Source: a bacterium
GTDB lineage: Bacteria; AUK180
NCBI GenBank assembly: GCA_030622125.1
Contig: JAUXGM010000108.1
Coordinates: forward strand, 1 to 7,227
Length of the DNA stretch: 7,227 bases
Direction: 5' to 3'
How positions within the stretch are numbered: the stretch's first letter is position 1; every line of letters starts with the position of its first letter. The notes under the pieces are model-generated. The model ran no database searches. It was not told the DNA's origin and saw only the letters and a list, made by a program, of their open reading frames with translations. Shown here piece after piece: positions 232-7,212 of the stretch. The translations under genes and the position numbers were made by a program.

Positions 232-277
232 GGGACACACCTCAACAAAAAAAATCTCTTTGTTGAGGTAATGTCCC
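232..277. repeat. Two-part long hairpin, REP-like
   Basis: The inner stem is 11 bp: 239-249 (ACCTCAACAAA) pairs perfectly with 259-269 (TTTGTTGAGGT) around a 9-nt loop. The outer stem is 6 bp: GGGACA at 232-237 pairs with TGTCCC at 272-277. The two are separated by a small internal loop (C238 against A270-A271). It is followed by TCTTTT, so it could also end transcription arriving from the left. Hairpins with GGGACA/TGTCCC outer arms resemble the REP-type palindromes moved by Y1 (RAYT) transposases; that link is inference, and no transposase is in the window. Confidence 0.6.
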
Positions 278-387: not shown

Positions 388-1341
388 ATGAAAATTTTTG
401 TAACAGGCGGTACGGGATTTATTGGCAGTCATCTGGTCAAACTTCTAAATAAAAATGGAATAAAACCAGATTGCCTTATCAGAACAAAACCGAAATGGCT
501 AAAAGGGTGTGATTATTATGCGGTAAAAGGAAGCTCGTTTAAAAAAGAGGAAGTGAGAAAATCCCTATTAAAAACAAACTATGTATTTTATTTAGCCGGT
601 GTTACCAAGGCAAAAAACTATGAAGATTATGTTGCAGGTAATCTAATTCCGTTTATGGAGTTTTACAATACACTGATTGAGATCAAAGCCCCTGTAAAAT
701 GGATCGGCTATATCAGTACGATGGCAATCAATAGACCGCATAAGGACGGTAGTCCGATAACGATTAAGGATGATCTTGACCCAATATCCGATTATGGTAA
801 AGCCAAAATGCTTGTTGAAAAATTTTTAGAAACAAGAAAAGAATTTCCGATATTTATCAGCCGATTGCCCGGAGTGTATGGAGAGAGGGATATGGATTTC
901 TTAGAATATTTTAAAATGGTTAAAAATGGGATCATACCCATAGTTGGCAATGAAAAGATCACAACATCACTGATCTATGTTGAGGATGTTGTTTACGCTC
1001 TCTATTCAGCATTCAAAAATAAGATTACAGGCAAATACTATCTATCCGATGGAAATTTTTACACTTACAAAGAAATAGGAAAAGTTTCAAGAAAGATATT
1101 GAATAAAAATGCAATATATGTTAAAATACCATTATTGGCTGCAAAAACAGCAGCGAGGATAAATGAGTTTTTTACGACAAGTAATATCGTGAGTAAACAA
1201 AAAATGGATGAGATATCGGCAGGAAATTGGATCTGTGAGAATAAACGTGCGAAAGCTGATCTCAATTGGCATCCTAAATATGATATCAAAGATGGGTTTG
1301 TAAAGACCATTGAATGGTATAAGGAAAATAAGTATTTGTAG
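388..1341 (+). CDS. cerR: Extended SDR reductase, probable ceramide reductase (CerR-like)
   Basis: An NAD(P)-dependent extended short-chain dehydrogenase of 317 residues, the usual length for the family. The Rossmann signature TGGTGFIG is at residues 6-13 (G7, G10, G13). The catalytic set is T111 (in YISTMAI), Y136 and K140 (YGKAK). RLPGVYG at 159-165 and LIYVEDVVYA around 195-204 are typical substrate-side motifs of the epimerase/dehydratase branch. There is no signal peptide. Family membership is certain. The specific role, reducing the 3-keto group of N-acyl-3-ketosphinganine to dihydroceramide as Caulobacter CerR does, is inferred from the adjacent spt and bCerS-like genes. A KBL-coupled threonine dehydrogenase is less likely, because the neighbour is Spt-like rather than KBL-like. 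The ATG at 388 is the first in frame next to the Rossmann strand; it has no Shine-Dalgarno, and the promoter lies directly upstream. Confidence 0.72.
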   Translation: MKIFVTGGTGFIGSHLVKLLNKNGIKPDCLIRTKPKWLKGCDYYAVKGSSFKKEEVRKSLLKTNYVFYLAGVTKAKNYEDYVAGNLIPFMEFYNTLIEIKAPVKWIGYISTMAINRPHKDGSPITIKDDLDPISDYGKAKMLVEKFLETRKEFPIFISRLPGVYGERDMDFLEYFKMVKNGIIPIVGNEKITTSLIYVEDVVYALYSAFKNKITGKYYLSDGNFYTYKEIGKVSRKILNKNAIYVKIPLLAAKTAARINEFFTTSNIVSKQKMDEISAGNWICENKRAKADLNWHPKYDIKDGFVKTIEWYKENKYL

Positions 1342-1353
1342 GGAGTTTATGTA

Positions 1354-2541
1354 ATGAAAGGTGATTTGTTTCAAAAATGTTACGATTTCAAAGAAGCGGA
1401 TAAGGTAAGAAAATTGGGACTATACCCATATTTTACACCAATAACATCCGCACAGGAGACAGAGGTTTATATTGAGGGGAAAAAGGTTATAATGCTTGGT
1501 TCAAACTCATATATGGGATTGACCCATCATCCCAAATTGAGGGAAGCAGCAAAGAAGGCAATAGATAAATACGGAACGGGGTGTGCCGGTTCAAGATTTT
1601 TGAACGGTACATTGGATATTCACAATGAGCTTGAGGAGAAACTTGCAAAATTTTTGGGAAAAGAAGCGTCTTTACTCTATTCTACCGGCTATCAAACGAA
1701 TCTTGGTGTTATATCCGGGATCGCTTTAAAGGATGATTATATACTTGCCGATAGAATGGATCATGCAAGTATTGTGGATGGATGTAAATTATCCTATGCT
1801 CAAACGATAAGATTTAAGCATAATGATATGGGAGACCTTGAAAATAAACTATCTAATTTACCGGAAGATGTCGGTAAACTTATTGTTGTTGACGGCGTAT
1901 TTTCAATGGAAGGAGATATTACTCCTTTACCCGAGATCGTAGAATTAAGGAAAAAATTCGGTGCAAGACTACTTGTTGATGATGCCCATTCAGTAGGGGT
2001 TCTCGGAAAAAACGGAAAGGGCACCGCTGAATATTTTGATGTTGAGGATGATGTGGATATGATAATGAATACCTTTTCAAAAACCTTTGCCAGCATGGGC
2101 GGTTATATTGCATCCTCAAATAAGGTAATTGATTATCTAAAACATTTTTCAAGGGCACTTATATTCAGTGCTTCATTGCCGCCTTCAATATTGGCTTCCG
2201 TAGACGCAGCTCTTGATATCATTGTGACGGAACCATGGCGAAGGGAAAGGTTATGGAAGATGACGGAGATGATGCATAACGGATTCAAATCACTTGGGTA
2301 TTCAACCGGCGAGAGTAAGACAGCCATTATCCCGATAAGAATCGGTGATATGCTAACAACATTTAAGATGCGGAAGCGTCTCCTTGAAGAAGGTGTTTTT
2401 GTGAATCCGGTTGTCCCGCCTGCGGTTTCACCGACCGATTGTTTGATCAGGGTAAGTTTTATGGCAACCCATACGGATGAACAATTGGAATTTTCTCTTG
2501 ATAAATTCAAAAAAGTCGGTAAGGAGTTTGGAGTTATCTAA
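1354..2541 (+). CDS. spt: Serine palmitoyltransferase (PLP alpha-oxoamine synthase)
   Basis: Condenses L-serine with a long-chain acyl thioester, releasing CO2, to make 3-ketosphinganine, the first step of sphingolipid synthesis; cytosolic or membrane-associated. It has 395 residues, normal for soluble bacterial Spt. PLP residues are H137 (DHASI), D209 and H212 (VDDAH), and the Schiff-base K243 in TFSKTFAS; their spacing matches H159/D231/H234/K265 of Sphingomonas Spt with a constant offset of 22. R366 (LIRVSF) is the likely carboxylate-binding arginine. GTGCAGSRFLNGT (74-86), FSMEGDI and the TFSK-F-AS lysine motif are the Spt form; KBL normally has TLGKALGGA there. Overall it closely resembles Bacteroidota Spt. 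The start is fixed by GGGAG at 1341-1345, 8 nt upstream. Other alpha-oxoamine synthases (KBL, BioF, HemA) are the alternatives but fit less well. Confidence 0.9.
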   Translation: MKGDLFQKCYDFKEADKVRKLGLYPYFTPITSAQETEVYIEGKKVIMLGSNSYMGLTHHPKLREAAKKAIDKYGTGCAGSRFLNGTLDIHNELEEKLAKFLGKEASLLYSTGYQTNLGVISGIALKDDYILADRMDHASIVDGCKLSYAQTIRFKHNDMGDLENKLSNLPEDVGKLIVVDGVFSMEGDITPLPEIVELRKKFGARLLVDDAHSVGVLGKNGKGTAEYFDVEDDVDMIMNTFSKTFASMGGYIASSNKVIDYLKHFSRALIFSASLPPSILASVDAALDIIVTEPWRRERLWKMTEMMHNGFKSLGYSTGESKTAIIPIRIGDMLTTFKMRKRLLEEGVFVNPVVPPAVSPTDCLIRVSFMATHTDEQLEFSLDKFKKVGKEFGVI

Positions 2542-3659
2542 TGGCTGTTGAAATATTTTCTGTTACAACAAAGAAAAATTTAAAAAAGTTTGTAGAATTT
2601 CCATACAATCTTTACAGAAATTATCCCGATTGGGTACCACCGTTGAAATCAGAAGTATATAAACTCTTTGACAAAAAGAGAAATCCATTCTTAGAGCATT
2701 CTATCATTCAGCCCTTTATTGCTATTAAAGAGGGCAAAGTAGTGGGTAGAATTGCTGCGATAATAGATGATAATTATATAAACTTTCACAATAAAAAAAT
2801 TGGATATTTTGGTTTTTTTGAATGTATTGATAACGAGAGTATTGCCGATGCTTTATTTAAGGAATCAGAAAAATTTCTCATTCAAAATGGCATGAATGAG
2901 GTTATAGGACCATTAAATGCATCAACAAATGAAGAGTGTGGGTTTCTATTGGAAGGATTCGATTCTACACCTCTTTTAATGATGACATATACCCCTCGTT
3001 ACTATCTAAGATTGGCGGAACATTTCCGATACAAAAAAGCAAAAGATCTCTTTGCATTTCATATGGATCTTCAAAATCCATTACCGGAAAAAGTAAATAG
3101 GATAGCGGAAAGAATAAAAAAAAGAAATCAAATAACAATAACCCACATTGATCTAAAACATTTTAATAGGGATTTAAAAAAGGTAAAAGGAATTTATAAT
3201 TCTGCATGGGAAGCAAATTGGGGCTTTGTTCCAATGACGGAAGCAGAAATTGATGATCTTGCAAAGGATATGAAGGACTTAGTTGTTCCCGAACTTTTGC
3301 AGTTTGCTGAAATAGATGGTGAAACCGTTGCATTTATGTGGATTATGCCTGATTATAATTATGTATTAAAGAAAATGAGCGGGAAACTTAATCCTTTTAT
3401 CTTTTTAAAAGAGAAAAAGAATATTAAATGGTTCCGTCTTATAACCTTTGGTATTATAGAGAAGTATCGTAAACAGGGAATTGATGCTCTCTTTTTTTCT
3501 AATGGACTTGAAACGGCAAGGAAAATGGGCTATACCGATGCAGAATTTTCATGGGTATTGGAAGAAAATGTTTTGGTGCATCGCGCCGCAAAAGCAATGG
3601 GCGGAGAACTTTATAAAAAGTATAGAATTTATGGAAAGCAATTAAAGGAAGAAAAATGA
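2541..3659 (+). CDS. bcerS: GNAT-like N-acyltransferase, probable bacterial ceramide synthase
   Basis: A 372-residue protein that would N-acylate 3-ketosphinganine (or sphinganine) with a fatty acyl-CoA. The N-terminal part has YPDWVPPL (28-35), NPFLEH (48-53), a GNAT-like beta segment FIAIKEGKVVGRIAAI (59-74), GYFGFFE (88-94) and the strongly conserved-looking block around NEECGFLLEGFD (130-141). The C-terminal part holds the acyl-CoA-binding motif A, FGIIEKYRKQGIDAL (303-317, Y309 to G313), followed by SWVLEENV (337-344), MGGELYKKYRIY (353-364). This two-part layout and the WVPPL/NPF and SW-LE-N...YRIY signatures match the family I know from the Caulobacter ceramide synthase gene, often annotated merely as GNAT or hypothetical. 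No membrane segments or signal peptide. The start ATG overlaps the spt stop (TAATG), with GGAG at 2530-2533 giving 7-nt spacing. The GNAT-family call is firm; the substrate is inferred from homology recall plus context. Confidence 0.72.
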   Translation: MAVEIFSVTTKKNLKKFVEFPYNLYRNYPDWVPPLKSEVYKLFDKKRNPFLEHSIIQPFIAIKEGKVVGRIAAIIDDNYINFHNKKIGYFGFFECIDNESIADALFKESEKFLIQNGMNEVIGPLNASTNEECGFLLEGFDSTPLLMMTYTPRYYLRLAEHFRYKKAKDLFAFHMDLQNPLPEKVNRIAERIKKRNQITITHIDLKHFNRDLKKVKGIYNSAWEANWGFVPMTEAEIDDLAKDMKDLVVPELLQFAEIDGETVAFMWIMPDYNYVLKKMSGKLNPFIFLKEKKNIKWFRLITFGIIEKYRKQGIDALFFSNGLETARKMGYTDAEFSWVLEENVLVHRAAKAMGGELYKKYRIYGKQLKEEK

Positions 3660-4027
3660 GCAAGATCTTGATCGTAGATGACAGCAAGTTTGCAAGAGCT
3701 ATTATAGTGAACGGTTTGAAAAAAGAAGGATTTGAAACAATAGAAGCGGAAAATGGGCAGGAGGCAATAGATATTGCCAAGATTGAAAAGCCGAATCTGG
3801 TAATAATGGATGTTGTAATGCCTGTATTAAATGGAATAGAAGCGACAAAAATATTAAAAAATTTGGAAGAAACAAAAAAAATACCAATATTGATACTCAC
3901 CGGTCAGAATACGAAAGAAGAAATATTAGAAGGCTTCAATGCCGGCGCAGATGAATATTTATGCAAACCGTTCAAATTCAATGAACTCTTATCTACAATT
4001 AAAACCCTCTTAAATTTATACAGGTAA
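3656..4027 (+). CDS. Stand-alone receiver-domain response regulator
   Basis: A 123-residue protein that is a single CheY-like receiver domain with no output domain. The acidic pocket is D8 and D9, the phospho-acceptor is D52 (VIMDVVMP), T82 is the switch threonine (LILTG), Y101 the aromatic switch, and K104-P105 the conserved lysine-proline. All functional positions are intact. It would receive phosphate from a histidine kinase and act by protein contact; no kinase is in the window, so the partner is unknown. The start ATG overlaps the previous stop (ATGA), with AAGGAAG at 3645-3651 as ribosome site. Such single-domain regulators serve chemotaxis, phosphorelays or cell-cycle control; nothing here distinguishes these. 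Its link to the lipid genes is positional only. Confidence 0.92.
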
Positions 4028-4028
4028 T

Positions 4029-5126
4029 ATGGAAAAAGATTATTATAATAGACTTGGTGTTAATAAAAATGCTACACAAGAAGAGATTAAAAAAGCATTT
4101 AGAAAAGCTGCATTAAAATATCATCCGGATAAAAATCCCGAAGGTAAAAAAGAAGCAGAGGAAAAATTCAAAGAAATTAATGAAGCTTATGCAGTGCTTT
4201 CGGATCCCGAGAAAAGATCAATTTATGATAAGTATGGCTATGAAGGATTAAGGGGACAGTATGGAGGTTCTCAATTTGATGATTTTATTTCATCCATTTT
4301 TAAAAATTTTGGTTTTTTTGATGATATATTCGGTGGATTTGCGCAATCTCATAGTAAAAAAGGAACAGATATTCAGATTGATATTACCATGGACCTTGAA
4401 GAGGTTTTTAACGGTACAGAAAAGGAAATTACAATAAAAAGAACCGTACCATGTGAAAAATGCAATGGAAGTGGAGCAGCAACCCCATCCGATATTACTA
4501 CCTGCGCCCATTGTAACGGAACAGGAAAAATTCGTAGGCAACAGTTTTTCTTCACCGTTTCCCAAACCTGTCCTTATTGTAATGGGACCGGAAAAATAAT
4601 AACGAAAAAATGTTCCAATTGTAAAGGTAATGGTTATATCATTCAAAAAGAAAAAATTGAAATTAAAATAGAATCCGGTATTGATAACGGTGCGATTTTA
4701 CTTTATAAGGGAAAAGGAAACATAGTAGATCCCGAATATCCTGCTGGTGATCTTTACATTGTTACATATATTAAAGAAGATCCCATATTTAAAAGAGATG
4801 GAATGAATCTTTATGTAGAACTTCCAATTCCTTTTACAAGTGCAATGTTTGGTGATAAGCTGGAACTTGATTACTTTGATCAGAAAAAATTGACGGTTAA
4901 TATACCACCAAAAACATCCAATGGTGATATTCTTAAGTTACGCGGCTATGGAATTCCCAAGGGTGGATATCGAGGTGATCTGATAATTCAAATGAAGCTT
5001 ATTACTCCTAAAAGAATGAATAAAACACAGGAAGCGGTTTTAAAAAAATTTCATAAATTGACAAAAGATAATTATGATATCCTGAATAAGCTTAAAAAGG
5101 TTTTAAAAAAAAGGTTTAAAAAATGA
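4029..5126 (+). CDS. dnaJ: Chaperone protein DnaJ (type I Hsp40)
   Basis: Cochaperone that delivers unfolded clients to DnaK and stimulates its ATPase. It has 365 residues, slightly short of the usual 370-380. In order: J domain (about 1-68) with the HPD motif at H32-P33-D34; a G/F-rich linker (about 69-106) with [11 protein letters not shown]; a zinc-binding domain with all four CxxCxGxG repeats starting at C142, C159, C181 and C195, spaced as in classical DnaJ; then two beta-sandwich substrate domains and a Lys-rich tail. It lies one base after the response regulator stop, with only a weak AGG as ribosome site, and overlaps serS by ATGA. No dnaK, grpE or hrcA is in the window and I see no CIRCE-type inverted repeat before it, so regulation appears to follow the operon. 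It may be either the main DnaJ or a second copy. Confidence 0.95.
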
Positions 5127-6385
5127 TAAACCCCAAATTATTTTTAGATAATATAGAATTTGTTAAAGAAAATATATTAAGAAGAAGAAAAAATATAGAT
5201 ATGGATCCTCTTATAATCTTAATAAATAAAACAAGGCATTTGAAACAGGAAATTGACAAAAATCGAGCTTGTAAAAAGCTGCTGAGTAAAGAATTTGGAA
5301 TGAGAATGACTAAAAAAGAATCTGTTGACAAATTAAAAGCAGATATAGATGTGCTGGAAAAAAAGATCACAAAAGCAGAGCAGGAATACAATGAACTTGA
5401 AAGGCAAAAAAGAAATCTACTCTTAAAAATCCCAAATATTTTAGATAATTCGGTTCCGGATGGAAAAGATGAAACCGAAAATGTTGTTATAAAAGAGTAT
5501 CCTCCAAAAGAAAAACTTAAATTTAAGCCGTTAACACATATTGAGCTTGGTGAAAAAAATGATATTATTGATTTTAAAAGTGCTGTTGAACTTGCCGGAA
5601 GTCGGTTCGTCCTTCTGAAGAATAAAGGTGCAATACTTCACAGAGCATTGGCAAATTTTATGTTGAACGAACAAGCGAAAATGGGATATGAAGAACTATA
5701 TACCCCATTTTTAGTTAAAAGATCAATCCTGGAGGCAACCGGTCAGATTCCCGACAAGGAAGACGACATCTATAAAATAGAGGGCGAGAATCTTTATCTT
5801 ATTCCTACCGTCGAGGTTACTCTGGTAAACTATGGCTGTTATATAGATCTTAATGAATCGGATCTACCAAAAAGATTGACCGGTGTTTCTGCAAACTTTA
5901 GAAAGGAAGCGGGTTCTTATGGAAAAGATGTAAGAGGAATGATCAGAGTGCATCAGTTCGATGCAGTAGAGTTAATTTCAATAACAACCCCGGAAGATTC
6001 TTTTGATGAATTGGAAAAAATGAGAGAAGCGGCAGAAAACATATTAAAACTTTTAGAGCTTCCTTATAAAGTTATCGTATTAAGTTCGGGGGATACCGGA
6101 TTTACAGCTGCAAAAACTTATGATCTTGAGGTCTGGATTCCATCGGAAAATAGATATAGAGAGGTTTCTTCTATTTCAAATTGCACCGATTTTCAAGCAA
6201 GAAGATTAAATTTTAAATATAGAAACAAAAATGGTGAAAGAGAGCTTGTGCATACCTTAAATGGCACCGGTCTGGCTATTGGAAGAACATTTTTGGCAGT
6301 TTTGGAAAATTATCAAAGGGAAGACGGATCAATAATAATTCCGAAAGTATTGAGAAAATATACTAATTTTGACATAATAAAATAG
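5123..6385 (+). CDS. serS: Seryl-tRNA synthetase
   Basis: Class II aminoacyl-tRNA synthetase charging tRNA-Ser (and tRNA-Sec where present); cytosolic homodimer. It has 420 residues, the normal bacterial length. Residues 1-105 form the N-terminal tRNA-binding domain with a long two-helix coiled coil, ending in the hinge IPN...VPDG (103-114). The serine-recognition TxE is T229/E231 (TVE). Motif 2 runs from F259-R260-K261-E262 to R275 and F279, with E283 as serine ligand; motif 3 is GLAIGR at 383-388. These numbers are offset by 4 from the Thermus residues I recall (R256, E258, R271, F275, E279). A281 replaces a lysine I would expect in the HQF-x-KVE segment. AAGG at 5111-5114 lies 8 nt before the ATG, which overlaps the dnaJ stop. 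No T-box leader is possible because there is no intergenic space. Confidence 0.96.
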
Positions 6386-7212
6386 TGCCGTATATTATAC
6401 TTTTTTTGTCATTAATTCTTTACGGGGTTGCTACGACGCTTCAAAAATCCGCATTGAAAGGATTAGGACTAAGATCACTTTTACGAATTCATGGTTGGAC
6501 CGCTTGCGGATTATACCTTTTCATCTGGTATTTTTTTTCAAAAGATCTCACTCTTTCCCATTACCTTTTCCCGTTTTTGGGAGCTTTTGCTTCAGCAATC
6601 GGTTTTGTCTTTTTCTATGAAGCACTTAAAAGAACATCAGCTTCACTTGTCAGTGTTATTACAGGGACTTACGCTATTTTCACCGTATTATGCTCTATAT
6701 GTTTTTTAAAGGAAGTTTTTCTGATAAATTATGGATTAGGTTTTTTACTTATCATGATCGGTATGATATTTGTATCGGGCAATAGAATTAAAAAGCCTTC
6801 GTTTTTCGGAATTATACTTTCCGTTTGTGCATCGTTATTATGGGGATTATGGGGTTTTTTTTCAAAGATTTCCTATAATTATGTAGGTGAACCGGAGATA
6901 TTGGGAGCACTTGGAGTAACATTGCTTTTGGTTTTTTTACTCTATACCTCAAGAATGCCTGATGATAGGAAGTATTACACGCAAAAAGGAGAGATCATCG
7001 GTTTTATCTCAATTATTATTACCTGCTTCGCATCAATATGCTGTTATTTTTCGTTACAATTCTTTCCTGCTTCCTTTGCAATGCCGATAATATCCGCATA
7101 TCCGTTAGTTACGATAATTACATCATATTTTATCTTAAAAGAAAGTTTAACAAAAAAACAATTATTTGCTTCTTTCCTAATAATTATCGGGATAATTTTA
7201 TTTTTTCTATAG
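6385..7212 (+). CDS. EamA/DMT-superfamily transporter
   Basis: An integral membrane protein of 275 residues with ten predicted membrane segments in two homologous halves, as in EamA (drug/metabolite transporter) proteins. Segments lie near 3-20, 33-51, 60-79, 86-108, 112-131, 140-160, 170-188, 203-223, 228-250 and 256-275. Each half ends in the family pattern: YEALKRTSASLVSVITG...FLKE (78-110) in the first and SLQFFPASFAMPI...FILKES (223-254) in the second. Substrate cannot be told; relatives export amino acids, nucleobases or other small metabolites. The start is GTG overlapping the serS stop (TAGTG), the only non-ATG start in the operon. No Shine-Dalgarno is visible upstream, so translation probably depends on ribosomes finishing serS. 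The next in-frame ATGs are far inside and would remove membrane segments, which supports the GTG. Confidence 0.88.
   Translation: MPYIILFLSLILYGVATTLQKSALKGLGLRSLLRIHGWTACGLYLFIWYFFSKDLTLSHYLFPFLGAFASAIGFVFFYEALKRTSASLVSVITGTYAIFTVLCSICFLKEVFLINYGLGFLLIMIGMIFVSGNRIKKPSFFGIILSVCASLLWGLWGFFSKISYNYVGEPEILGALGVTLLLVFLLYTSRMPDDRKYYTQKGEIIGFISIIITCFASICCYFSLQFFPASFAMPIISAYPLVTIITSYFILKESLTKKQLFASFLIIIGIILFFL
7182..7207 (+). terminator. Weak possible intrinsic terminator at operon end
   Basis: AATTAT (7182-7187) can pair with ATAATT (7192-7197) around the loop CGGG, followed directly by a T-rich run TTATTTTTTC (7198-7207). The position, at the last codons of the final gene, fits an operon terminator. 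The six-base stem is all A-T, hence weak, and the stem lies inside the coding sequence. The 15 bases after the stop codon contain nothing else recognisable. Confidence 0.25.

Follow-up and report, generated by a model that had tools for sequence, protein, structure and literature searches.

The three adjacent genes at positions 388 to 3659 of the window, i.e. of the whole 7,227-nucleotide stretch of DNA that was analysed, very likely represent an operon that serves to build the (dihydro)ceramide backbone de novo. They encode an SDR-type reductase (CerR), a serine palmitoyltransferase (Spt) and a tandem-GNAT N-acyltransferase (bCerS), and both their identity and their conserved linkage were found in trees and gene neighbourhoods. 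By analogy with characterised homologues, the three enzymes would act in sequence to give dihydroceramide, which the source organism is predicted to produce.

The window is one whole contig (G000:C37) of an assembly comprising 2.08 Mb in 192 contigs (96% complete). ORF calling confirmed the position of the cassette, its three ORFs and the overlap between spt and bcerS as given in the first-pass annotation (Table 1). The SDR and spt ORFs are separated by 12 bp, and the TAA of spt and the ATG of bcerS share one base (TAATG, 1-bp overlap). The extent of three genes was correct as to the cassette but understated, because the run continues up to position 7212 with genes for a response regulator, a DnaJ chaperone, a seryl-tRNA synthetase (SerRS) and an EamA-family transporter. 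Altogether, seven genes are arranged nearly without gaps on the plus strand (388-7212). The response regulator start overlaps bcerS by 4 bp, and from bcerS to the transporter gene there are short overlaps or one 1-bp gap throughout. An Rfam search of the window gave no match. A promoter scan returned 44 matches compared to 30.6 in shuffled sequences, which says little in AT-rich DNA.

Table 1. Features of the window with their coordinates and the evidence for each
Feature	Position	Strand	Evidence
cerR, SDR-fold ceramide (or 3-ketosphinganine) reductase (predicted)	388..1341	+	317 aa; extended SDR motifs, tree, Y136/K140, model
spt, serine palmitoyltransferase, PLP-dependent alpha-oxoamine synthase (predicted)	1354..2541	+	395 aa; NF047600, PDB match, tree, catalytic residues
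bcerS, tandem-GNAT N-acyltransferase, CC_1154/YghO family (predicted)	2541..3659	+	372 aa; YghO identity, tree, model
Single-domain response regulator, same block	3656..4027	+	PF00072; same position in four sister genomes
DnaJ chaperone, same block	4029..5126	+	PF00226, PF00684, PF01556; conserved position
Seryl-tRNA synthetase (SerRS), same block	5123..6385	+	PF00587, PF02403; conserved position
EamA-family transporter, same block	6385..7212	+	PF00892; conserved position
REP-like palindromic repeat, upstream of cassette, outside pathway	232..277	.	hairpin z -6.1; genome pattern matches

The PLP-dependent enzyme carries the full Spt catalytic set proposed for it (H137, D209, H212 and K243), and these residues are invariant in an alignment of 15 sequences. 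Its top NCBIfam model is NF047600, the serine palmitoyltransferase of the Bacteroidota type, with 585.6 bits. This falls under the curated equivalog cut-off of 640 bits, which is an annotation threshold and not a biological feature, and probably reflects divergence rather than another function. The top PDB matches were to the Sphingobacterium SPT 3a2b/8guh (441.6 bits, E 2.3e-131), ranking ahead of the Sphingomonas SPT, KBL, a cysteate enzyme and BioF. The SPT of Sphingobacterium multivorum (3a2b, 8guh) is thus the closest characterised enzyme, and its catalytic residues are the same as in the window; the identity to E. coli Spt is 39%.

In a tree of 57 proteins, the enzyme lies within a supported clade (97, then 99) holding all SPT references including the crystallised ones, whereas the KBL, BioF and HemA references are placed outside. 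This tree rejects an identity as KBL, BioF or HemA and bears out the initial assignment as Spt. The PLP enzyme shares the alpha-oxoamine synthase fold with KBL and BioF, and the models of these two also match it, at scores below their cut-offs. Nevertheless, in view of the clade and of the linkage of its gene to cerR and bcerS, it is barely conceivable that it is a KBL or BioF relative serving a different pathway.

A preference of the Spt-like enzyme for alanine or cysteate, in which case the products of the cassette would be 1-deoxyceramides or sulfonolipids and not canonical ceramides, appears improbable. Alanine substrate switching and 1-deoxysphingolipids in anoxic water have been described (PMC11334938), and a cysteate C-fatty acyltransferase (PDB 28eh) is a homologue of Spt with 239 bits. 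True SPTs match far better, however, the value for 3a2b/8guh being 441.6 bits, and the position in the Spt clade likewise argues against such a preference, in a tree from which the cysteate C-fatty acyltransferase was left out.

The third protein gave no match in Pfam or NCBIfam. Over the full length it shares 33% identity with E. coli YghO, with the NWGFxP motif kept, and its identity to orthologues in other cassettes is 64-66%. YghO is a homologue of Caulobacter CC_1154, whose gene is required for dihydroceramide formation (PMC9386255). In a tree of 113 proteins, the protein clusters with cassette homologues linked to spt (support 96), which together with the identity to YghO upholds the membership in the bCerS family claimed for it. 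The structure model (pLDDT 94.6) shows a tandem GNAT; among known structures it matched tandem GNATs with Z up to 24.6 and N-myristoyltransferases with Z about 16. The latter fit a long-chain acyl-CoA as the donor. Acting on the analogy of its homologues, bCerS would N-acylate 3-ketosphinganine or sphinganine. YghO-like GNATs are also present in genomes whose best Spt-like match is merely at the level of KBL or BioF (e.g. G020, G046), so that GNAT membership alone is not diagnostic of ceramide synthesis.

A second YghO-like tandem GNAT, 43% identical to bCerS, is encoded in the same genome (positions 8501-9631 of L079, contig G000:C27). In each of the five genomes of the family, this paralogue lineage is located behind miaB and mutS, and it belongs to a separate, spt-unlinked clade of the 113-protein tree (support 98). 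It was therefore rejected as the true bCerS, for which it is unlikely to be the first choice.

The product of the first gene carries the cofactor motif TGxxGxxG and Y136-xxx-K140, and its structure model (pLDDT 94.3) has the SDR fold. In profile searches, generic SDR matches dominate. The SDR tree is more specific: all spt-linked SDRs and the CerR homologues of E. coli BL21, P. veronii and Sphingomonas are split from six further SDRs encoded in the genome of the window (support 100), and the window's family branches deep inside the spt-linked clade. Of the 60 CerR sequences compared, from cassettes and references, all retain Y136 and 59 retain K140. Together, these results corroborate the reading of the SDR as CerR. 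The references for CerR (E. coli BL21, P. veronii, Sphingomonas) and for bCerS (YghO) are homologues of the Caulobacter proteins, not the Caulobacter sequences themselves. In genomes of other families, the best SDR homologue often adjoins a homologue of spt or bcerS (e.g. G007, G009, G011, G012, G013, G015). A PDB match was obtained to the complex I subunit NDUFA9, a homology described for Caulobacter CerR as well (PMC11087976).

Roles for CerR, bCerS and Spt have been described (PMC11087976), and five Caulobacter genes, with homologues including yghO in E. coli BL21, are needed for dihydroceramide (PMC9386255). On this model, Spt would form 3-ketosphinganine by condensing L-serine and a long-chain acyl thioester, which is probably acyl-CoA. 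The second acyl chain would then be put on the amine by the tandem-GNAT bCerS, and CerR would use NAD(P)H to reduce the 3-keto group, acylation probably preceding reduction by analogy with Caulobacter. As to the donor, there is no AcpR gene in the window, and a search of the genome for an AcpR/AasR partner with a Rhodobacteria acyl-ACP synthetase as query gave weak partial matches only (best AasR match partial, 30%). This makes acyl-CoA the likelier donor.

The steps might also follow a eukaryote-like order, in which the SDR first reduces 3-ketosphinganine and bCerS then acylates sphinganine. We regard this as possible though rather unlikely. One group has put forward such an order for Caulobacter (see the discussion in PMC11087976 and PMC9386255), and Bacteroides has an enzyme that reduces free 3-ketosphinganine (PMC9278070). 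On inspection, no obvious N-terminal signal peptide was found in the SDR of the window, which starts directly in the Rossmann motif, indicating a possible cytoplasmic location. In Caulobacter, on the other hand, CerR is a periplasmic protein and N-acylated keto-ceramide builds up in cerR mutants (PMC11087976), which argues for acylation first. The set of three genes would be a convenient minimal system for testing the reaction order.

The first-pass annotation had considered the contiguity of the genes unusual. This view did not stand, since according to published work clustering of the three genes is frequent and Spt-like genes occur across about 40 phyla (PMC11334938). We scanned a bCerS alignment against 84,980 named species genomes and kept the best 80 of the loci listed; as these are the nearest relatives, the following fractions are not population frequencies. 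The spt gene was near the GNAT gene in 56 of the best 80 loci and all three genes were together in 42, while 13 had the exact order SDR-spt-GNAT on one strand. These 13 belong to Nitrospirota, Elusimicrobiota, Zixiibacteriota, Acidobacteriota, Thermodesulfobacteriota and unclassified MAGs, and the cassettes of Nitrospirota, Elusimicrobiota, Zixiibacteriota and others resemble that of the window in genes, order, strand and short gaps. The plasmid of Rubrobacter radiotolerans (Actinomycetota; NZ_CP007515) is equally compact, with three adjacent genes and an 8-bp overlap of spt and bcerS, but in the order spt-bcerS-SDR instead of SDR-spt-bcerS.

In Caulobacter crescentus and E. coli BL21, all five ceramide genes (spt, acpR, aasR, cerR/epi and bcerS/aca, i.e. 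CC_1154/yghO) are located together (PMC9386255). Spt, the SDR reductase and the GNAT acyltransferase are homologous and clustered there as in the window; the genes for AcpR and an acyl-ACP synthetase accompany spt in those organisms, whereas neither is adjacent here. For sphingolipid-producing Bacteroidota such as Bacteroides, the genes are reported to be unclustered (PMC11334938, PMC9278070), in contrast to the window and as the first-pass annotation had stated for Bacteroides. Extended to a rule for Bacteroidota this would be too broad, because contiguous clusters with a divergent SDR gene are found in Aureispira and several MAGs of Bacteroidota and Ignavibacteriota. The cassette is thus a further example of known enzymes and known clustering rather than a novel type of system, and the picture of widespread bacterial ceramide synthesis is unchanged. 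What it adds is a deep uncultured lineage with a complete and compact ceramide gene set, in which no AcpR system was found. Several ceramide clusters of Myxococcota (L090, L097, L108) have two GNAT genes flanking the SDR gene (spt-GNAT-SDR-GNAT), which suggests a second acylation.

The order of all seven genes is intact in G001, G002 and G004, which represent sister genera. The recurrence of the SDR-Spt-GNAT order in these genomes and in many other phyla excludes chance. The block of response regulator, DnaJ, SerRS and EamA genes was not seen behind the cassette outside the window's family among the matches listed, and thus distinguishes the window from the cassettes of other phyla. It is very improbable that ceramide synthesis is transcriptionally tied to this block and that the EamA protein serves as the inner-membrane flippase for a sphingolipid intermediate. 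SerRS and Spt, encoded in the same run, both use serine, which may be coincidence.

In the sister genome G003, bcerS has been lost from the otherwise intact block (positions 8316-8334 of L064, contig G003:C9), the stop of spt overlapping the start of the response regulator gene. Its sole remaining bCerS homologue is the mutS-linked paralogue. Since cerR and spt are kept here, retention of these two steps does not require the third. In G003, either the mutS-linked paralogue acylates or the pathway ends at the free sphingoid base, and this genome therefore offers a natural experiment to show which steps are required.

The source lineage is a small group with two families within a single class, and the list of 60 relatives contains no member of its phylum from outside this class. 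In an RpoB tree, the organism is placed on its own deep branch. The constraint cost 2.2 log units for a grouping with the FCB-type rows (p-AU 0.37), compared to 3.0 log units for one with Elusimicrobiota (p-AU 0.14). The AU test thus rejects neither grouping, nor does it support the FCB-type one, and the FCB-type affiliation assumed at first is not established. A second RpoB tree left out the Myxococcus and Thermoanaerobaculia rows, whose branches in the first were very long and which appeared to be mis-framed.

The REP-like repeat upstream of the cassette has 44 pattern matches in the genome compared to 0 for the reversed control, and in most of the copies read the flanks are conserved. Four Y1_Tnp (RAYT-like) genes are present in the same genome. 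Furthermore, rpoB and rpoC appear to be fused to a single ORF of 2,792 aa (positions 3417-11795 of L237, G000:C188). Such fusions are known from Helicobacter and Wolbachia. Long single frames of the rpoB-rpoC type were also detected in G001, G003 and G004 (2,794-2,804 aa) and in G005 (2,414 aa), so that the fusion is probably class-wide.
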